Assembly (NCBI GenBank): GCA_030837965.1
Contig: JAUTXP010000066.1
Location: 1 to 51,960 of the forward strand
Direction of reading: 5' to 3'
Length of the DNA: 51,960 bases
Source of the DNA: Acidimicrobiaceae bacterium
GTDB lineage: Bacteria > Actinomycetota > Acidimicrobiia > Acidimicrobiales > JAUTXP01
A program made the translations under genes and the position numbers. Positions 16,616 through 36,022 of this stretch are shown here, in pieces (positions within the stretch are counted from its first letter, which is position 1; each line of letters begins with the position of its first letter). Below the pieces are notes generated by a model. It was given only the letters and a program-made list of their open reading frames with translations, searched no databases and was not told the origin of the DNA.

Positions 16616-19045
16616 TCAGAGGGGGGACGCGGAGAGGAGGATTTCGTGGGCCGGGCGGGGCGGGCTGAACAAAAAGCCCTGGGCTGCGCCGCACCCGAGC
16701 CGGATCAATTCGTCGCGCTGGGTGGGCTGTTCCACGCCCTCGGCGATGCACGTCAGCCCCAGGGCGCTGGTCAGCCCGAGCACCGCGGTCACGATGGCGT
16801 CGTCCTCGGCCCGCGAGCCCAGCCCGCTCACGAAGGAGCGGTCGATCTTCACCGCGTCGATCGGAAACCGACGCAGGTAGGCCAGCGACGAGTAGCCGGT
16901 GCCGAAGTCGTCGATGGCCAGTCGGACGCCCAGCCGCTTGAGGGCCCGCAGCACCGACAGCGAGAGGTCGGCATCGTCCATCAATGCGCTCTCCGTCAAT
17001 TCCAGGCAGAGCGCATCGGCGGGCAGGCCCGACTCCTCGAGCGCGGCCGCCACCCGCGCAATCAGCCCGGCCTCGCCCAACTGACGCACCGAGAGGTTGA
17101 CGGCCACCACGAAGGGGTGGCCCGGGTGCTCGTCACGCCATTGGCGCCCGTAGTGGCACGCCTCTTGCAGCACCCAGCCGCCCACCCGGTCGATGAGCCC
17201 GCTGCGCTCGGCTTGAGGGATGAACTCGCCGGGCGCCAGCAGGCCGCGTTCGGGGTGCTGCCAGCGCACGAGGGCCTCGAAGCCGATGAGGTTGCCGGTG
17301 GCCAGCTCGATCTCGGGCTGGAGCCACACGCGCAACTCGCCTGACTCCAAGGCCCGCTCCAACTCGCTGTCCAGATCCCTGCGGGCCCTGGCCTCGCGCC
17401 GGCGGGACTCGTTGAACACCTCGAAGCGGGCCCGGCCCCGCTGCTTGGCCGTGTAGAGGGCGGCATCTGCGTCCCGAAGAAGGGCCTCGGGGTGGTCGTC
17501 CTCCCCATGGGTCATGGCGATGCCGATGCTGGCCGTGATCCTGATCTCGGCCCGGCCCACGAGCAAGGGCTCGGCCAGGGCGACGTTGATGCGCTCGCAC
17601 AGCCCAATGGCCTCCAACTCGCCGATCAGCCCCTCGCACACCACCACGTACTCGTCGCCCCCGACTCTGGCGACCATGTCCATGGGCCTGACCACGTCCC
17701 GGATGCGCGTGGTCACCATGGGCAGGACCTGGTCGCCGCCCTCATGGCCCAACCGCTCATTGACCTCTTTGAAGCGGTCGAGGTCGATGACCAGCACGGC
17801 CACTTTGTCACCCTTGGCGCCCGCCCGGCCCAACACGGGGCCGAGCTGCTGCACCACCTCGGCCCGGGACACGATGCCCGCTTGACGGTCGGCGTCGGCC
17901 GCCCCCGCCAGCAAGGCGGCCGACCACTCGTGGGCCGCGGCCTGGCGCTCGTAGGCCAAGGCGACGAGCGACGAGGCCACGTCGAGCACCTGCTGCTCGG
18001 CCGGCGTGGTCGGGCGGCCCTGCGGCCGGGAGACGGACAGCGCCTCGGGCCCGGCCCGGTCGGCGTCGATGACCAACGTGCATCCGGGCGCGTGCTCCTC
18101 GACCATCTTGCCGATGCCGCGCAGCACCTCGCCCAGCGGGGCCCGGCGGGCGATGGCGGTGAGCACGCCCGCCTCTGCGGCCAGTACGTCGGCGTATCGG
18201 CGGCGCTCAGTGACGTCCCGGAGATAGACGACGACGCCGCCGACCTGAGGCGAGTCGAAGCAGTTGGTGAAGACGGCCTCCATGGTCCGCCAGGAGCCGT
18301 CGCCATGGGCCATGCGGAACTCGACCGGGCCGGTGATGCCGGGCCGGGCCATGGCCACCGTGACCGAGCCCGCCACCAACGGCATGTCGTCCTCGTGCAA
18401 CAGGCTGGGGACGTCGACGGGGCGGATGTCGCCTTGACCAAGCAGGCCCAGCAGCCGGTCCAGGCCCGGGCTGCGCCAGATCACGTCGCCGTCGGCGTCG
18501 AGCACGACCACGGTGTCCGACGCATCGCGCATCAGCCACTCGAAATGGCGGACGGCGGGCTCGGACTGCACGTATTGACGACGGGCAGTGAGCTCGGCCA
18601 TGACGAGGCCGGCCACTGCCTCCAAGATGGCGACCTGGCTCGAGGTGAACTGGCGAGGCCGGTGGTCGGCTCCGAACACGGCCCCGATCACCTCGCCCGA
18701 CGGGGTGCGCAGCGGGGCCGCGGCCCAGGCGCCGACTCGCAACGGGTGATGGCTGAAGGCCGGCTGGACCACGGCATGGCCGATCACGATGGCGCGGTCA
18801 GAGTCGAGCAGCGTCGGCATCAAGGCCCAGGACCGTGGCAAGTACCGACGGTCGATTCCGACAGCCGCCTCCAACCGCAGCCTGCAGTTGTCCACCAAGG
18901 CCACCGCGGCCATGGGCACATCCAGGAAATGGGCCAGGGCCCGCACCGCGCCGGCGAACCCCGCGTGATGGGCAGGGTTCGGCGGGCGGTAGTCAGCCGC
19001 CGCAGTCAACCGCCGTCGCTCAGCCTCCGGAACGACTCCTGCCAT
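16616..19045 (-). CDS. GAF-PAS-GGDEF-EAL cyclic-di-GMP enzyme
   Basis: This 809-residue soluble protein has a GAF domain (about 25-155), a PAS domain (about 165-285), a linker, a GGDEF domain (about 410-540) and an EAL domain (about 555-805). The cyclase motif is GGDEY (462-466) with the metal Asp in DLDRF. The phosphodiesterase domain keeps EALVRW (from 590), NLSVRQ, ELTESALM, DDFGTGYSS, KIDRSFV and EGVE, so both activities look intact. It would set local cyclic-di-GMP in response to a signal sensed by GAF/PAS; no heme or flavin ligand is obvious. ATG 19045 follows an AGGGGAG. A palindrome lies immediately after the stop. Confidence 0.93.
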   Translation of the reverse strand: MAGVVPEAERRRLTAAADYRPPNPAHHAGFAGAVRALAHFLDVPMAAVALVDNCRLRLEAAVGIDRRYLPRSWALMPTLLDSDRAIVIGHAVVQPAFSHHPLRVGAWAAAPLRTPSGEVIGAVFGADHRPRQFTSSQVAILEAVAGLVMAELTARRQYVQSEPAVRHFEWLMRDASDTVVVLDADGDVIWRSPGLDRLLGLLGQGDIRPVDVPSLLHEDDMPLVAGSVTVAMARPGITGPVEFRMAHGDGSWRTMEAVFTNCFDSPQVGGVVVYLRDVTERRRYADVLAAEAGVLTAIARRAPLGEVLRGIGKMVEEHAPGCTLVIDADRAGPEALSVSRPQGRPTTPAEQQVLDVASSLVALAYERQAAAHEWSAALLAGAADADRQAGIVSRAEVVQQLGPVLGRAGAKGDKVAVLVIDLDRFKEVNERLGHEGGDQVLPMVTTRIRDVVRPMDMVARVGGDEYVVVCEGLIGELEAIGLCERINVALAEPLLVGRAEIRITASIGIAMTHGEDDHPEALLRDADAALYTAKQRGRARFEVFNESRRREARARRDLDSELERALESGELRVWLQPEIELATGNLIGFEALVRWQHPERGLLAPGEFIPQAERSGLIDRVGGWVLQEACHYGRQWRDEHPGHPFVVAVNLSVRQLGEAGLIARVAAALEESGLPADALCLELTESALMDDADLSLSVLRALKRLGVRLAIDDFGTGYSSLAYLRRFPIDAVKIDRSFVSGLGSRAEDDAIVTAVLGLTSALGLTCIAEGVEQPTQRDELIRLGCGAAQGFLFSPPRPAHEILLSASPL

Positions 19046-25838: not shown

Positions 25839-26306
25839 TCAGGCGGGGAACTTGGAGGCGTAGCCGATGCGCATGGCGGGTCGGAAGAACTGCTCGGTGT
25901 AGGCGAAGACCGAGCCCACGATCCGGTCCAGTTCGGCCTCGTCCACGCTCCCGACCGGCATCTGCCCCACCAGGTACACAGCGTCCTCCTCGCCCAGCGC
26001 GAAGCGCATGGCGAACAGCCGCAAGTTCAACCGCAGCAGGTACTCCCAGACCGCCTCCACGTTCTCCTCGGGTCCGGGCATGAAGTACGACTCGTAGTGG
26101 AGCGTGTACTCCCGCAGGGTCAGCCACACGGTGAACGTCTGCTTCTCCTCGCCCGCCATGCGCACGTACCACCGGCGCACATCGGGGTCGGGCTCGCGGT
26201 CGACGGCCTTGACCACGGGCGACTCGTCCAACTGCCGGGTGGCCCAGGCGTCGATGAGGGCCTCGAGCCGGGCCAGCTCCTCGTCGGAGCCTGGAGCTAT
26301 CGACAC
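25839..26306 (-). CDS. YbjN-domain protein
   Basis: This 155-residue protein has the YbjN fold sequence pattern: an N-terminal helix, WYVRMAGEEKQTFTVWLTL, YTLHYESYFMPGPEENVEAVWEYLLRLN and the final FRPAMRIGYAS. The family resembles type III secretion chaperones in fold; its function in actinobacteria is unknown. It directly follows mshA, with a 10-base overlap (GTG 26306), the same pairing as in mycobacteria. It is the last gene before a strong palindrome. Confidence 0.85.
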   Translation of the reverse strand: MSIAPGSDEELARLEALIDAWATRQLDESPVVKAVDREPDPDVRRWYVRMAGEEKQTFTVWLTLREYTLHYESYFMPGPEENVEAVWEYLLRLNLRLFAMRFALGEEDAVYLVGQMPVGSVDEAELDRIVGSVFAYTEQFFRPAMRIGYASKFPA

Positions 26307-27514
26307 TCCACCAGCGAGCGGTCGGTGAGCTCGGCGTACAGCCCCCGCAACCGGGCCGCGGCCACGGGCCAGACGTACTGCCGGGCCCGCTCGGCCGCGT
26401 CGGCGCTGAGCTGGGCGGCCAGCATCGGATTGCCCAGCACCTCGTCGACGTACAGCGCGAACGTGGCTGGGTCGCGCCGCTCGACCAGAAAGCCGGTGCG
26501 GCCGTGGTCCACCAGCGTGCGCAGGCCGCCCACGGCCGCGGCCACCACCGGCGTACCGCACGCGGCCGCCTCCAGGGCGACCAGCCCGAACGACTCGGAC
26601 CGGCTCGGCACGATGCACACGTCGGCCGCCCGGTAGAAGGTGGAGAGCAGTTCGTGTGGCTGGGGCGGCCGGAAAAACACCCGGTCCGACAGGCCCAGGT
26701 CGGCCACCAAGGCGCGGATGCGGTCGGCCTCGGCCTGGCCCTGCACACCGCTCGGCCCGCCGACGGCCACCAAGAACGCGTCCTTGTGGCTGGAGTCAGC
26801 CAAGGCCTGCACGGCCACGTCGAGCGCCTTCAAGGGCTGGACGCGGCCGACGAACAAGAGCATGGGGCGGTCGGCAGGAAGGCCCAAAGCCCGCCGGGCC
26901 TGGGGCCGATAGCCGGGGGCGAAGAAGGCCCGCTCCACGCCGGGCGGCACGATCTCGATGCGCTCGGCGTCGACCCCGTACAGCGACGCGATCTGATGGG
27001 CCTCCACCGAGCACGAGGCCAACACCGTGTCGGCGCAGCCCATCACCGACGCCTCGGCCTGCTCGCGGCGCAACGGCTCGTCCTCGGACGCCTCGGCCTT
27101 GACCCGGGCCAGGGTGTGGAAGGTGGCGACCAACGGCAGGTCAAGCTCGTGCTTGATGCGGTGGCCGGCCACGCCCGACAGCCAGTAGTTGGCGTGCAGC
27201 ACCTCAGCCCTGCGCCCGCCCTCGATGCGCCCGACGACGGCCTCGGCAAACTCGTCCACCAGCTCGGGCAGGTCCTCCTTGGCCACCGGGGCCAGCGGCC
27301 CGGCGGGCACGTGGTGAACGCGAAAGCCAGGCTCCACGGGGACGGTGGCGGGCAGCTCGGGCGACCAGGCCCTGGTGTAGACGTCGCACTCGACGCCCGA
27401 CCGGGCCAGCGCCGCGCTCAGCTCGCGCACGTACACGTTCATGCCGCCGCCGTCCCCGAGGCCGGGCTGGGCCAGGGGCGAGGTGTGCATGGAGAGGACA
27501 GCCAGGTGTCGCAT
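26297..27514 (-). CDS. mshA: D-inositol-3-phosphate glycosyltransferase (mycothiol synthesis)
   Basis: This 405-residue GT4-family enzyme would transfer N-acetylglucosamine from UDP-GlcNAc to inositol-3-phosphate, the first step of mycothiol synthesis. Motifs: LSMHTSPLAQPGLGDGGGMNVYVREL at the start (residues ~5-30, the glycine-rich acceptor loop), HANYWLSG, TFHTLARVKA, VGRVQPLKALDVA, and the sugar-nucleotide signature PSRSESFGLVALEAAACGTPVV. ATG 27514 is chosen; an upstream in-frame TTG (27526) is possible. The MshA rather than generic GT4 call rests on the N-terminal motif and the ybjN neighbour. Confidence 0.88.
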   Translation of the reverse strand: MRHLAVLSMHTSPLAQPGLGDGGGMNVYVRELSAALARSGVECDVYTRAWSPELPATVPVEPGFRVHHVPAGPLAPVAKEDLPELVDEFAEAVVGRIEGGRRAEVLHANYWLSGVAGHRIKHELDLPLVATFHTLARVKAEASEDEPLRREQAEASVMGCADTVLASCSVEAHQIASLYGVDAERIEIVPPGVERAFFAPGYRPQARRALGLPADRPMLLFVGRVQPLKALDVAVQALADSSHKDAFLVAVGGPSGVQGQAEADRIRALVADLGLSDRVFFRPPQPHELLSTFYRAADVCIVPSRSESFGLVALEAAACGTPVVAAAVGGLRTLVDHGRTGFLVERRDPATFALYVDEVLGNPMLAAQLSADAAERARQYVWPVAAARLRGLYAELTDRSLVECR

Positions 27515-27528
27515 CGGGCCGTGCAACC

Positions 27529-27987
27529 CTACCCAGCGACCGTCTCTTCCTCGCCCGACCCGCCGTCGGGGCCGGACGCGTCGTCCACCCCTTCGGGACC
27601 CGCACCCTCCCCCGCGGCCAGGCCCGGCGAGACAGGCTTGTCCTCGTTCTCGTGACGGAAGGCCCGGTAGACCTGGATGAGCATCTGCTTTTGCTCCTCG
27701 GTCAAGAACCGGTCCCTGAGGATGTCGCCTTCCAAGTCGCCGTCGGTGGCCCGCTCTTCGAGGATGCCCGCCCGCACATAGAGCGTCTCGGCGCTGATGC
27801 GCAGGGCCTTGGCGATCTGCTGAAGGATCTCGGCCGACGGCTTGCGCAGGCCCCGCTCGATCTGGCTGAGGTACGGGTTGGAGATGCCCGCCAGCTCGGA
27901 CAGCTTTCGCAGCGACAAACGGGCCGTCGACCGCTGCTCCCGGATGAACTCCCCGAGGTCATGCCACCGGTCGGGGATCTGCGTCAT
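27529..27987 (-). CDS. XRE-family regulator
   Basis: This 152-residue protein has an N-terminal helix-turn-helix: LGEFIREQRSTARLSLRKLSELAGISNPYLSQIERGLRKPSAEILQQIAKAL is read in pieces as the recognition region (about residues 10-60), followed by SAETLYVRAGILEE. The C-terminus is an acidic Gly/Glu-rich tail. It closely recalls a conserved actinobacterial regulator of unknown targets found in mycobacteria and streptomycetes. The ATG at 27987 is six bases from a TACGGT hexamer, so a leaderless mRNA is likely. It ends 14 bases before mshA. Confidence 0.88.
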   Translation of the reverse strand: MTQIPDRWHDLGEFIREQRSTARLSLRKLSELAGISNPYLSQIERGLRKPSAEILQQIAKALRISAETLYVRAGILEERATDGDLEGDILRDRFLTEEQKQMLIQVYRAFRHENEDKPVSPGLAAGEGAGPEGVDDASGPDGGSGEEETVAG

Positions 27988-28090: not shown

Positions 28091-28831
28091 TCAGGCCGGC
28101 GTCGGGTGCAGGCGTTCGCAGAGGGGGACGAAGGCGGCCACCACGTCCGGGTCGAACTGCGTGCCCGCCATCCGAGTCAGCTCGCCCGCAGCCCGTTCCA
28201 AGGACAGGGCCGACCGATAGGGCCGATCGGTGGTCATGGCGTCGAAGGCGTCGACCACGGCGAAGACCCGGGCGGGCAGGGGAATGTCCTCGCCCTTCAG
28301 CCCTTCCGGATAGCCGGACCCGTCGAACATCTCGTGATGCGACCGAACGATCTCGGCTGCGTTCTGCATGAACGGGATCGACGCCAGCATCTGAAAGCCG
28401 ATGAGCGGATGGGTGCGCATGACCCGCCACTCCGCCGCGGTCAGCGGACCGGGCTTGCTCAAGATGCGCTCGGGCACGCCGACCTTGCCCGCGTCGTGCA
28501 GGAGGAAGCCGAACTCGGCGTCGGGATAGTCGGCCTCGATCCCGATCTCGCGCAAGAGGGCCACGCCGTAGACCCGGCACCGCTCCAAGTGCTGGCCCGT
28601 GTACGCGTCCTTGGCCTCGACCACGAAGGCCAGCGACCGGATGGTCTCCAAGAACGACGTCTTGAGGTTGGCCAGCGCGGCCTCCAACTCGCCCGCCTGG
28701 TGGCGCTCGCGCCGATGGGCCTGTACCGCGTCCCTGGCCAGCACGTGCATCTGGTTCTCGACGTCGGCCGCCGACAAGGTGGGCGGCGCACCATCCCCGT
28801 AGTCGCCCTGCCCGCCCCACGGCACACTCAC
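28091..28831 (-). CDS. HD-GYP cyclic-di-GMP phosphodiesterase
   Basis: This 246-residue protein has an N-terminal helical linker and an HD-GYP domain from about residue 60. Catalytic motifs: HDAGKVGVPERIL (HD), MRTHPLIGF, HHEMFDGSGYPEGLKGEDIPL (the GYP segment), and ARVFAVVDAFDAMTTDRPYR. All metal-binding His/Asp residues look present, so it should hydrolyse cyclic-di-GMP. GTG 28831 overlaps the receiver-protein stop as GTGA, so the pair works as a split two-component output. Confidence 0.93.
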   Translation of the reverse strand: MSVPWGGQGDYGDGAPPTLSAADVENQMHVLARDAVQAHRRERHQAGELEAALANLKTSFLETIRSLAFVVEAKDAYTGQHLERCRVYGVALLREIGIEADYPDAEFGFLLHDAGKVGVPERILSKPGPLTAAEWRVMRTHPLIGFQMLASIPFMQNAAEIVRSHHEMFDGSGYPEGLKGEDIPLPARVFAVVDAFDAMTTDRPYRSALSLERAAGELTRMAGTQFDPDVVAAFVPLCERLHPTPA

Positions 28832-29193
28832 GCGCCCAGCCCCTCGATCACGTCGAGCAAACCGGTGGAGGAGAACGGCTTGGTCAAGAAGGCGTCGGCG
28901 CCCGCCTCTTTACAGGCCGCTTCGAGTGCAGGGTCATCCCTGGCCGTCAGCATGACGACCTTCACCTGGTCGTGGTCGATCCTGCGGCAGACCTCGACGC
29001 CGTCCATGCCCGGCATCATCACGTCGAGAATCACGACCTTGGGCACGGCTTCGAGATCCTGCAACAGGCCCAAGGCCTCGGCGCCGGACCGGGCGTCGAC
29101 CACGTGGTAGTCGTCAGCCTCCAAGACCGTGCGCACCAAACGGCGAACCATCTCGTCGTCGTCGACCACGAGGACGAGGTCGCTGCTGTTCAT
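28828..29193 (-). CDS. Stand-alone response-regulator receiver protein
   Basis: This 121-residue CheY-like domain has VLVVDDDEMVRRLV (acidic pocket), phospho-acceptor Asp in VVILDVMMPGMDGVEV (about residue 57), VVMLTARD and the lysine in FLTKPFS. There is no output domain; the HD-GYP protein translated from the overlapping frame is the likely partner. No histidine kinase is encoded nearby. ATG 29193 overlaps the rsiG-like stop as ATGA. Confidence 0.93.
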   Translation of the reverse strand: MNSSDLVLVVDDDEMVRRLVRTVLEADDYHVVDARSGAEALGLLQDLEAVPKVVILDVMMPGMDGVEVCRRIDHDQVKVVMLTARDDPALEAACKEAGADAFLTKPFSSTGLLDVIEGLGA

Positions 29194-29729
29194 GTCAGCA
29201 GCGAGTCGACGGACGCCTCCCCAGTCTTATATCGACGCACGATCTCCTCCTGAAGGCGGTTGGCCACGTCGTGCAGGCTGTTCCGCTGGGCGGACACCTT
29301 GCGCTCCAACTCGCTCAGCCGGTCGGCGACGTCGCGCATCTCCCCGTCGCTCAACTCGGGCAGCGAGCTGAGCCGGGATGCGCCGATGATCTGGTCCAGC
29401 TCCTGGCTGATCCAGCCGTCCGTGTCGGCCGGGCCGAAGCTGGCCGGCAGCCGGCCCATGCCGCTGGCGTGCGTGTTGTCGGCGATGATCTCGCCCTTCT
29501 CCAAGCGCTCGACCAGAAAGGCCAAGTCGCCGGGCCCGCCCCCGGCCCGCCGCTCCAAGTCGGCGTGGACGATGTCGAGCCTGCCCTGCACCAGGCGGCG
29601 CAGGTAGGACAGCACGTCGGCCGCCTCTTGACTCTCGTCTCTGCGGCTGCGGACCTCGCCCATGGGCAGGGACTCGAGGTCCTCGACGTAGTCGGGCGAC
29701 AGGATCGTTTCAATACGGGCGATCGCCAT
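29190..29729 (-). CDS. RsiG-like anti-sigma factor (cyclic-di-GMP-binding family)
   Basis: This 179-residue helical protein carries two copies of the RsiG cyclic-di-GMP motif E-x3-S-x2-R-x3-Q-x3-D. The first copy keeps S41, R44, Q48 and D52 but has Ala at the Glu position (E35 lies two residues off). The second keeps E142, S146 and R149, but has H153 and N157 instead of Gln and Asp. In Streptomyces RsiG bound to cyclic-di-GMP holds the sigma factor WhiG. Its place in an ATGA/GTGA-coupled operon with a receiver protein and an HD-GYP phosphodiesterase strongly supports a cyclic-di-GMP role. No WhiG/FliA-type sigma gene is in the window. TACCCT lies seven bases before ATG 29729. Confidence 0.75.
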   Translation of the reverse strand: MAIARIETILSPDYVEDLESLPMGEVRSRRDESQEAADVLSYLRRLVQGRLDIVHADLERRAGGGPGDLAFLVERLEKGEIIADNTHASGMGRLPASFGPADTDGWISQELDQIIGASRLSSLPELSDGEMRDVADRLSELERKVSAQRNSLHDVANRLQEEIVRRYKTGEASVDSLLT

Positions 29730-29747: not shown

Positions 29748-30896
29748 CTAAAACCCCATCCCTTTTGCGATGTAGTCGAGCATCACCTCGTCGGCCCCGG
29801 CGCCGATGCGGGCCAGGCGGCTGTCCCGCCACGAGCGCTGCACCCAGTGCTCCATCATGTAGCCGAGCCCGCCATGCAATTGCAGGCACGCGTCGGCCAC
29901 CTCGAAGTGCACGCGGGTCGCCAGCAGCTTGGCCTCGGTGATAGCCCGCACCGGGTACTCGCCCAACTGGACACGCCACGCCGTCTCGTAGGTCAGCGCC
30001 CTGGCCGCGTCGACCATGGCCTGGCCTTCGGCCAGCTTGTGGCGAACGGCCTGGAAGTCGGCGATGCGCTGTCCGAAGGCAGTGCGCTCGCGGAGGTACT
30101 CGATGGTCCGGTCGATGCAGAGTTGGGCGCCGGCGCACGCGCCCGCGGCGGCCGAGAGCCGCTCGCCTTGCAGCTCCCACATGATGTGGTGGAAACCTTT
30201 TCCCTCCTCGCCCAGCAGGTTGGCCGCGGGGACGCGCATGTCCTCGAACCGAAGCTCGGCCGTGTCCGACGAGTGCATGCCCACCTTGGCCAGGCGCTTC
30301 TCGACGTGAAAGCCGGGCGTGTCCGTGTCGACAAGGAACAGCGAGATGCCGGTGTGCCGCTGCGACGGGTCGGTCTTGGCCACCAACAGGAGGAAGTCGG
30401 CCCGAACGCCATTGGTGATGTAGGTCTTGCGCCCGTTGACCACGTACTCGTCGCCGTCCCTGATGGCGCGGGTGCGGATGCCGGCCACGTCGCTGCCCGC
30501 GTCGGGCTCGGTGATGCCGAGGGCGCCGATGCGCTCGCCCTTGATGGCGGGCCGCAGGTAGATGGCCTTGTGCTCCTCGGTGCCGAACTTGGCGATGGGC
30601 GGGGTGACGTACTCGCATTGGACGGACACGGCCATCGAGACCCCGCCGCTTCCGCAGCGGGCCATCTCCTCGGACAGCACGAGCATGGTGAGGTAGTCGC
30701 CGCCCTGGCCGCCGTCGGCCGGGTCGAAGTGAAGCCCGAGATACCCAAGCTCGCCCATGCGCTGGAAGACCCAGTCCGGGAAGTGCCCCTCGGCCTCCCA
30801 CTCGTCGGCATGCGGGGCCAACTCCTTCTCGACGAAGGTGCGCAACGAGCGGCGCAGGTCCTCGTGCTCCTCGGTGAACAGCGGATGGGCAGGCAC
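29748..30896 (-). CDS. Acyl-CoA dehydrogenase
   Basis: This 382-residue flavoenzyme oxidises acyl-CoA thioesters to 2-enoyl-CoA. Motifs: LGITEPDAGSDVAGIRT and YITNG (FAD binding), the central ERLSAAAGACAGAQ and RTAFGQRIADFQAVRHKLA, and the C-terminal LQLHGGLGYMMEHWVQRSWRDSRLARIGAGADEVM. The length fits ordinary short/medium-chain enzymes rather than the longer methylsuccinyl-CoA dehydrogenase. GTG 30896 is chosen; longer frames run antisense into the divergent hydrolase gene only 12 bases away. Confidence 0.92.
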   Translation of the reverse strand: MPAHPLFTEEHEDLRRSLRTFVEKELAPHADEWEAEGHFPDWVFQRMGELGYLGLHFDPADGGQGGDYLTMLVLSEEMARCGSGGVSMAVSVQCEYVTPPIAKFGTEEHKAIYLRPAIKGERIGALGITEPDAGSDVAGIRTRAIRDGDEYVVNGRKTYITNGVRADFLLLVAKTDPSQRHTGISLFLVDTDTPGFHVEKRLAKVGMHSSDTAELRFEDMRVPAANLLGEEGKGFHHIMWELQGERLSAAAGACAGAQLCIDRTIEYLRERTAFGQRIADFQAVRHKLAEGQAMVDAARALTYETAWRVQLGEYPVRAITEAKLLATRVHFEVADACLQLHGGLGYMMEHWVQRSWRDSRLARIGAGADEVMLDYIAKGMGF

Positions 30897-30908
30897 GGCG
30901 TGGAGCGT

Positions 30909-31589
30909 ATGTTCGACGGCGTGATCCGCGCCCTCGTCCTCGACTTCGACGGACTCATCCTCGACACCGAGCGCCCGGTGTACGAGTCGTGGCGCTGGGC
31001 CTTCGCCGAGCACGGCCACGACCTGTCGCTCGACGAGTGGGCGTCGTGCATCGGCACGCCCCACGGATGGGACCCGTTGGAGAGCCTGGCTGCGTTGACT
31101 TCGGTCGACCAGTCCGTCATCGAGCGGCGGCGGGACGTGCGCGATCGCCTACTGGCTGCAGAGGCCGTGCTTCCCGGCGTGCTCGACCTGCTCGCGTCAG
31201 CCGCAGACTTGGGACTGCCGGTTGGCATCGCGTCTAGCTCGCCGTTGGAGTGGGTCGGGGGCCATTTGGAGCGACTCGGCCTGGCCGAGCGGTTCGGCTG
31301 CGTGGCCTGCTTTCGCGACGGGGTGGCGGGCAAGCCCGCGCCGGACTTGTACGCCGAGGCGGTGGCGTCGCTTGGCGTGCAGCCCGACGAGGCCATCGCC
31401 TTCGAGGACTCGATGCACGGTGTGGCCGCGGCCAAGGCCGCCGGGCTGTGGTGCGTGGCCGTGCCCCACGCGCTGACGGCCGGACTCGACCTGTCCGCGG
31501 CCGACCTCGTGGTGTCGTCGTTGGCCGACGTGTCGCTGCCCGCGTTGCTCGATCAGTGGAGCGGGCCGACCCGCTCGGTGGGGGCGTAG
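30909..31589 (+). CDS. HAD-superfamily hydrolase (beta-phosphoglucomutase-like)
   Basis: This 226-residue protein has all four HAD motifs: LVLDFDGLILDTE (nucleophile Asp), GIASSSPLEWV, the lysine in AGKPAPDLYAEAV, and AFEDSMHGVAAAKAAG. The subfamily includes phosphosugar mutases and phosphatases; the substrate is open. ATG 30909 is used, with GTG 30921 an alternative. It diverges from the acyl-CoA dehydrogenase with 12 bases between starts, so the promoters must lie inside the neighbouring coding sequence. Its 3' end overlaps sodX by 37 bases. Confidence 0.85.
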   Translation: MFDGVIRALVLDFDGLILDTERPVYESWRWAFAEHGHDLSLDEWASCIGTPHGWDPLESLAALTSVDQSVIERRRDVRDRLLAAEAVLPGVLDLLASAADLGLPVGIASSSPLEWVGGHLERLGLAERFGCVACFRDGVAGKPAPDLYAEAVASLGVQPDEAIAFEDSMHGVAAAKAAGLWCVAVPHALTAGLDLSAADLVVSSLADVSLPALLDQWSGPTRSVGA

Positions 31590-35189: not shown

Positions 35190-35296
35190 CTGCGCCCGCC
35201 CACGCCGCTGGCCGCGCCGCCCCGTGCCGCAGGAAACCTCACCCCGCCCCCGAACTTTCGATGAAGCGGGCGCAGCCCTTGGCCGATGGAGTGACG

Positions 35297-36022
35297 ATGG
35301 TGGATAGAGACGCGCTGTTGGGGCTGGTCGCCGGTTTGGTCGGCCTGGCCTTCGGCGTGGCCGCCGCCGTGATGTCCATTCCGGGCCTGGCGGTCGGGTC
35401 CGCGGCCTGCGCCCTCGTGGCCGCGGCCGCCTCCGTCATCCTCGTCCGCCGTCTGCACGACGCTCAGCGCGAGCTGGCCGGCGCCACCGCCTTGATGAAG
35501 CTGGTCGACATGCCCGCGCCCGCCCGGGAGGAGGCCCGCTCGCTGGTCGACCCCGAGACGGCCCTGCCCGATCAGCACTTCTTCCACCTGGCCGTGGACG
35601 GCCGGGTTGCCGCGGCCCGTCGGCACTTGTGGCCGGTCGCCATCGTGCTGCTTGAACTGGGCCTGGAAGACGCCGACGCCCGGCACCGCAGGGACGCGGT
35701 GGTGGGCTTCACCGGGGTCATGCGCAGGACCCTTCGGGAGGCCGACGTGGCCTGCCGCTTGGGCCCCACCACGTTCGGGCTCGTCCTCGAGGACACCAGC
35801 GAGGAGGGCGGCGTGTGGACGGCCGAGCGCCTCCAGATCGCCTTGGCGCGCGACACCGTGCGCATCAAGACGCTGGCCGCGGGCGTAGCTAGCTACCCGA
35901 CCCACGGCCTGCGGGCCGACGAGGTGCTCACCAGGGCCCGAACCGCCCTACACCGGGCCTGCTCCACCGATCCGGGCCGCGGCTTGGGCCAGGTCGAGGT
36001 GGCCCAAGCCGACATGGCTTGA
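35297..36022 (+). CDS. Membrane protein with degenerate GGDEF domain
   Basis: This 241-residue protein has two N-terminal membrane helices (about residues 5-50) and a GGDEF-like domain from about residue 85. The domain starts LVDPETALPDQHFF, as in true cyclases. The active-site loop reads ADVACRLGPTTFGLVLEDT, so GGDEF has become GPTTF. It should be inactive as a cyclase and may be a sensor or scaffold. Later GGDEF landmarks (ERLQIAL, AAGVASYPTHGLRADEVLTRARTALHRA) are kept. ATG 35297 has GGAG at five bases; an upstream ATG (35261) lacks this. Confidence 0.75.
   Translation: MVDRDALLGLVAGLVGLAFGVAAAVMSIPGLAVGSAACALVAAAASVILVRRLHDAQRELAGATALMKLVDMPAPAREEARSLVDPETALPDQHFFHLAVDGRVAAARRHLWPVAIVLLELGLEDADARHRRDAVVGFTGVMRRTLREADVACRLGPTTFGLVLEDTSEEGGVWTAERLQIALARDTVRIKTLAAGVASYPTHGLRADEVLTRARTALHRACSTDPGRGLGQVEVAQADMA

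Follow-up and report, generated by a model that had tools for sequence, protein, structure and literature searches.

The loss of c-di-GMP from the tight complex of the anti-sigma factor RsiG with the sigma factor WhiG has been called a poorly understood step, since a 0.4 µM site would not be emptied by a global fall to about 1 µM (PMC13232838). In Streptomyces, c-di-GMP signalling at WhiG is terminated by the phosphodiesterase RmdB (PMC13232838). The window analyzed here, a stretch of 51,960 nucleotides that makes up one contig, raises the question of whether mostly uncultured actinobacteria may encode this sigma lock beside its own release mechanism. RsiG with WhiG, c-di-GMP, and RmdB were known before; the rsiG-linked receiver and HD-GYP genes described below appear to be new, and the literature searched, largely outside subscription journals, contains no report of either. 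Coupling of rsiG to its own receiver and phosphodiesterase genes points to local release, offers a compact gene set for testing, and would extend the RsiG-WhiG switch to two-component input across families of Acidimicrobiia.

The rsiG operon and its products

The source genome (3.55 Mb in 88 contigs, 97.9% complete) contains a single copy of the rsiG-like gene, which lies in the following setting within the window.

26297..27526, minus strand: MshA-like glycosyltransferase (NCBIfam TIGR03449, 397 bits, below the curated cut-off of 462; assigned with the help of synteny)
27529..27987, minus strand: XRE-type regulator (Pfam HTH_3, E = 1.4e-12), often the direct downstream neighbor of rsiG in the class
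28091..28831, minus strand: HD-GYP protein, predicted phosphodiesterase, 246 aa (Pfam HD_5, E = 1.2e-35), with a GTG start codon that is a mechanical ORF call
28828..28831, minus strand: GTGA, 4-base overlap of the receiver stop and HD-GYP start (junction sequence)
28828..29193, minus strand: stand-alone receiver domain, 121 aa, ATG start (Pfam Response_reg, E = 1.5e-28)
29190..29193, minus strand: ATGA, 4-base overlap of the rsiG stop and receiver start (junction sequence)
29190..29729, minus strand: rsiG-like gene, 179 aa, ATG start (Pfam PF22802, phmmer, AF2, Foldseek)
29259..29306, minus strand: c-di-GMP motif 2, residues 142 to 157, E142-S146-R149-H153-N157, with Asn for Asp at 157 (sequence)
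29574..29621, minus strand: c-di-GMP motif 1, residues 37 to 52, A37-S41-R44-Q48-D52, with Ala for Glu at 37 (sequence)
29748..31064, minus strand: acyl-CoA dehydrogenase (Pfam), directly upstream of rsiG across a gap of about 18 bp

A preliminary description of this DNA had claimed a coupled operon of RsiG, receiver, and HD-GYP genes with ATGA and GTGA overlaps, and the three minus-strand ORFs and their junction sequences agree with it. Relatives of the operon likewise have short gaps or overlaps of 4 bases, which, like the gene order found at 22 further loci, counts against chance. No sigma gene is recognized beside the operon, as had also been stated, the sigma factor being encoded elsewhere in the genome, and no kinase gene is recognized next to the operon either. 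The acyl-CoA dehydrogenase gene is found upstream of rsiG at four other loci (L045, L046, L061, and L095), and the MshA-like glycosyltransferase forms the conserved end of an rsiG-XRE-glycosyltransferase block.

The 179-aa protein matches the RsiG-like family PF22802 in two stretches (E = 4.6e-21; 74.7 bits against a Pfam cut-off of 27). Its best solved relatives in phmmer searches are the Streptomyces venezuelae RsiG chains of RsiG-c-di-GMP-WhiG complexes (6PFJ, E = 5.7e-15, residues 16 to 178). The AF2 model, built from an alignment of 44 relatives (pLDDT 87, pTM 0.80), consists of two long helices, 23 to 62 and 128 to 169. Foldseek matches this model to 6PFV and 6PFJ with a probability of 1.00 and TM scores of 0.63 to 0.74 and to nothing else below an E value of 1, and its VIA Z to solved RsiG is 14.1, versus 9.0 for the next unrelated chain. 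Profile, closest solved relative, and predicted fold all bear out the earlier label of an RsiG-like protein; judged by profile, sequence, predicted structure, and fold, it is a member of the RsiG anti-sigma family, modeled as an antiparallel coiled coil. Like Streptomyces RsiG, it is a single coiled-coil chain of similar length with a C-terminal tail, and it carries two versions of the c-di-GMP motif, with 8 of the 10 positions kept; unlike the Streptomyces gene, for which no such neighbors have been described, its gene has receiver and HD-GYP genes beside it. The single-motif RsiG of Rubrobacter radiotolerans (7LQ2 to 7LQ4) follows the same ligand logic, and the motif-1 helix can be aligned with it (E = 3e-5), but that protein is a half-size homodimer rather than a twin-motif single chain. 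Viral contigs that were searched contained no relative of the window RsiG.

The receiver keeps the acidic residues D12 and D13, the phospho-acceptor D57, T83, and K105, which are conserved in its relatives. The HD-GYP protein aligns with PmGH (4MCW; E = 4e-37) and retains seven of its eight metal ligands (H81, H112, D113, H141, H165, H166, and D194), along with K116, D75, and D197; the HD and GYP residues are at positions 112 to 113 and 173 to 175, respectively. The metal ligands are invariant in all 16 orthologues aligned. Tyr77 occupies the variable E185 position (Glu185 in PmGH), which puts the protein in the Y/F subgroup with a predicted binuclear site; E72 had been considered as a metal ligand and was dropped, since Tyr77 takes the E185 place. 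Judging from the sequence, c-di-GMP is the probable rather than the certain substrate, because the solved structure nearest to the enzyme is that of a 3'3'-cGAMP phosphodiesterase; a search of the genome for a SMODS-type nucleotide cyclase, a source of cGAMP, found none. The combination of a receiver and an HD-GYP domain with a helical linker resembles response regulators of the RpfG/TM0186 type, but the window receiver and enzyme are encoded by separate, overlapping genes. Separate ORFs, and not a single RpfG-type polypeptide, were found in the window and in the linked relatives examined. The N-terminal helical linker of the HD-GYP protein (about residues 20 to 65) is conserved in part, in keeping with possible docking of a separate receiver at this site.

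The WhiG partner and its possible outputs

The preliminary description had proposed looking for WhiG or FliA genes elsewhere in the genome. A WhiG-type sigma factor is indeed encoded on another contig (G000:C41:12947-13735), with 283.5 bits to TIGR02479 and an E value of 4.4e-101 to the WhiG of 6PFJ. Its KYVAGR stretch is intact and provides the equivalents of K57, G61, and R62, the WhiG residues that touch c-di-GMP (PMC8325347), so that the cognate sigma factor has the same ligand-contact residues as in Streptomyces. The preliminary reading depended on a WhiG-type sigma factor and on c-di-GMP binding; because the genome encodes WhiG with these contact residues, it withstands the first of the two. 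Among 198 genomes of the class, 119 encode both RsiG and WhiG, 3 RsiG alone, 4 WhiG alone, and 72 neither, where WhiG was counted at scores of at least 235 bits, in the score gap above the FliA-like group (Fisher test, 6e-45, uncorrected for the relatedness of the genomes).

A second, FliA-like sigma factor (G000:C24:17694-18620) was considered as the RsiG partner and rejected: it has DFAVSQ in place of KYVAGR, its best matches are FliA proteins, and its gene lies near an FlgN gene. That region (G000:C24:17694-20007) combines the FliA-like sigma gene with genes for a LuxR-type regulator and FlgN; judging by gene starts, no further flagellar genes are recognized in the 20 kb beyond the sigma gene on that contig.

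Searches of the genome for WhiG-type promoters (TAAA-N14-16-GCCGAT) gave no exact match. With up to two mismatches and a spacing of 15, there were 26 matches, compared with 30 for a control pattern, so these promoters are not enriched and no regulon could be drawn. The genome also encodes secretion- or pilus-type ATPases, including two whose genes are a short distance apart on contig C51. Because these ATPases and FlgN are present, pili or motility are possible outputs, none of these genes being linked to WhiG here; pili have been proposed as an output in Rubrobacter.

Recurrence and inheritance of the rsiG linkage

In this class, rsiG is usually followed by the conserved XRE regulator and the MshA-like glycosyltransferase, and the receiver and HD-GYP genes occupy the slot between them and rsiG. 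The XRE gene adjoins rsiG in most of the 139 loci surveyed, and the regulator (27529-27987 of the window, minus strand) is highly conserved in this position throughout the class (GEFIREQR...LSLRKLSELAGISNPYLSQIERGLRKPSAEIL). Both the receiver and the HD-GYP protein are encoded at 16 surveyed loci, the receiver only at 8, and neither at 115; because loci were chosen for the similarity of their RsiG to that of the window or for a top profile score, these counts are not population frequencies, and many of the relatives are MAGs. With the window (17 of 140) and six further loci from GTDB, the RsiG-receiver-HD-GYP order is found at 23 loci. Five additional loci (L262 to L266) encode RsiG and HD-GYP without a detected receiver.

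A pair unique to the window is ruled out by closer relatives with the same order (22 further loci), and a strict dependence of HD-GYP on the receiver is ruled out by L262 to L266. The 8 receiver-only and 5 HD-GYP-only loci indicate that receiver and HD-GYP do not form an obligate pair and that each can persist alone; most relatives in the class have RsiG and WhiG with neither of them. On the RsiG tree, the carriers fall in one part of the order and are interleaved with noncarriers, which suggests one gain followed by several losses, a pattern also compatible with transfer. Pairwise distances of the three proteins covary, with Spearman coefficients of 0.51 for RsiG and receiver, 0.34 for RsiG and HD-GYP, and 0.60 for the remaining pair. 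At one locus (L211, G222:C9), a metallo-beta-lactamase-fold hydrolase (PF12706) is encoded between the receiver and XRE genes, in the place of HD-GYP; it is possibly another kind of phosphodiesterase.

An alignment scan for the HD-GYP protein, covering one genome per species in 84,980 species, returned 80 loci. The 28 nearest relatives (52 to 83% identity over the matched part) have rsiG upstream in 26 cases, and in the other 2 the contig end cuts the flank. These 26 comprise 20 loci with the RsiG-receiver-HD-GYP order, from records labeled Acidimicrobiia, Acidimicrobiales, Acidimicrobiaceae, or Actinomycetota, the 5 RsiG-HD-GYP loci L262 to L266, and a more distant RsiG-receiver-HD-GYP locus (L267). 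Among the other 52 loci (45 to 54% identity, mostly Thermoleophilia), none has a recognized rsiG within 5 kb. All rsiG-linked HD-GYPs form one clade in a quick tree (SH-aLRT 92), consistent with the earlier statement that a phosphodiesterase is made with RsiG: the linkage is persistent (26 of 28) and specific (0 of 52). In L269 to L316, mostly from Thermoleophilia, a receiver gene frequently follows the related HD-GYP gene (45 to 54% identity) directly instead of preceding it.

The conserved neighborhood could nonetheless belong to an enzyme that controls c-di-GMP globally. The genome has 26 GGDEF matches and thus many diguanylate cyclases in the same cell, which makes global control plausible, and conservation of gene order extends in any case to the XRE and MshA-like glycosyltransferase genes near rsiG, which have no obvious functional link. 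However, this HD-GYP clade adjoins rsiG wherever the flanks are known, even in the distant set L262 to L267. In the 23 genomes tested, HD-GYPs with at least 70% identity are found only at rsiG, and those genomes that lack the gene at rsiG have only HD-GYPs of at most 45% identity, i.e., they do not carry the clade elsewhere. Global control is therefore regarded as improbable. The inherited linkage fits better with what we consider a probable, if not a secure, interpretation: a dedicated and probably phosphorylation-controlled phosphodiesterase module that is joined to the RsiG-WhiG switch and encoded beside the anti-sigma gene.

Proposed sigma release and the RsiG ligand site

In such a module, RsiG would hold WhiG in a c-di-GMP-bound complex as long as c-di-GMP is high. 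A sensor kinase encoded elsewhere might phosphorylate the stand-alone receiver, which would then dock on the helical linker of the HD-GYP protein and switch the enzyme on, the two genes acting as a split response regulator. Translated together with RsiG from one coupled message, the enzyme would lower c-di-GMP in the vicinity of RsiG, and this local fall would free WhiG. The 26 GGDEF matches of the genome are in keeping with a c-di-GMP switch of this kind. Like RmdB, the predicted window enzyme would act as a c-di-GMP phosphodiesterase to relieve the inhibition of WhiG by RsiG; RmdB, however, is a GGDEF-EAL protein that binds WhiG, whereas the window enzyme is an unrelated HD-GYP protein that comes with a receiver and is encoded with rsiG.

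The comparison with RmdB also provides the main rival, direct protein antagonism, in which the receiver and/or the HD-GYP protein would bind RsiG or WhiG and displace the other in the manner of Streptomyces RmdB, catalysis being secondary. RmdB reportedly works through binding to WhiG, and to keep RsiG off WhiG it did not need its catalytic activity (PMC13232838). Consistent with such a role, the receiver gene adjoins rsiG at 8 loci without HD-GYP, and receiver distances track RsiG more closely than HD-GYP distances do (0.51 versus 0.34). On the other hand, a pure adaptor would not need the HD-GYP catalytic residues, which are conserved in 16 of 16 orthologues, and five loci have HD-GYP without a detected receiver. 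We consider direct antagonism unlikely overall, though the strongest of the competing explanations.

In the solved RsiG complexes, the Glu and Ser residues of the motif E(X)3S(X)2R(X)3[Q/H](X)3D form bonds to ribose, and guanine is stacked upon by Gln or His; the splayed guanine is read at its edge by Asp, the central one by Arg (PMC8325347). The two motifs of the window RsiG agree at 8 of 10 positions; Ala37 and Asn157 stand where the Streptomyces protein has Glu and Asp. In an alignment of 166 rows of RsiG relatives, of which about 15 duplicate a contig already represented, 156 rows carry Glu at position 37, and Asp at position 157 is equally frequent (156 rows; about 94% in each case). Ala37 is found only in the window, L045, L046 (the same as L240), and L047, and Asn157 only in the first three of these. 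The substitutions listed in the preliminary description are all present, including His153; that residue, however, is the commonest in its column (110 of 166 rows), which leaves only Ala37 and Asn157 as unusual. The RsiGs of L045 and L046 (69 and 66% identity, respectively) keep both, and L047 has D157 beside Ala37, so that one change alone is tolerated. The two replacements are lineage specific; they are missing from most loci with the same operon and thus lie outside its logic.

The residue sums 37 + 157 and 52 + 142 both equal 194, which would place Ala37 opposite Asn157 in an antiparallel coil centered on the motifs, with one end of the ligand site altered and the other canonical. Helix geometry thus indicates that the two residues are probably at the same end. 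The earlier suggestion that the substitutions change stoichiometry or affinity is thereby narrowed: altered stoichiometry is disfavored, and a weakened half-site is favored. In the lineage of the window, Ala37 and Asn157 probably weaken one end of the site and make the complex easier to release.

A more radical alternative is that the ligand site of this lineage is degraded or altered and that WhiG is held without c-di-GMP or with another nucleotide. The replaced residues are ligand contacts, Glu to ribose and Asp to the guanine edge (PMC8325347), and both replacements are kept in L045 and L046 at positions where Glu and Asp prevail in about 94% of the rows. The 8 positions that are kept include both Arg residues and one Asp, the ligand contacts of WhiG are likewise kept, L047 tolerates Ala37 with D157, and no SMODS-type cyclase was found in the genome; such a departure from c-di-GMP dependence is accordingly the least likely of the readings weighed here. 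Slightly less remote, though still quite doubtful, is an elaboration of the preferred phosphodiesterase module in which the HD-GYP clade is a dedicated RsiG-WhiG release enzyme and the lineage of the window has coevolved an asymmetric RsiG site, with Ala37 and Asn157 at one end conferring lower affinity or accommodating a different base; phosphorylation of the receiver would then eject the ligand and free the sigma factor.

Two other window proteins contain domains of c-di-GMP metabolism. A GAF-PAS-GGDEF-EAL protein of 809 aa (16619-19045, minus strand), encoded about 9 kb from the operon, is a second c-di-GMP turnover protein. Of a GGDEF domain, the short protein encoded at 35261-36019 on the plus strand has just the C-terminal part (profile positions 62 to 154 of 161), and it is probably degenerate.
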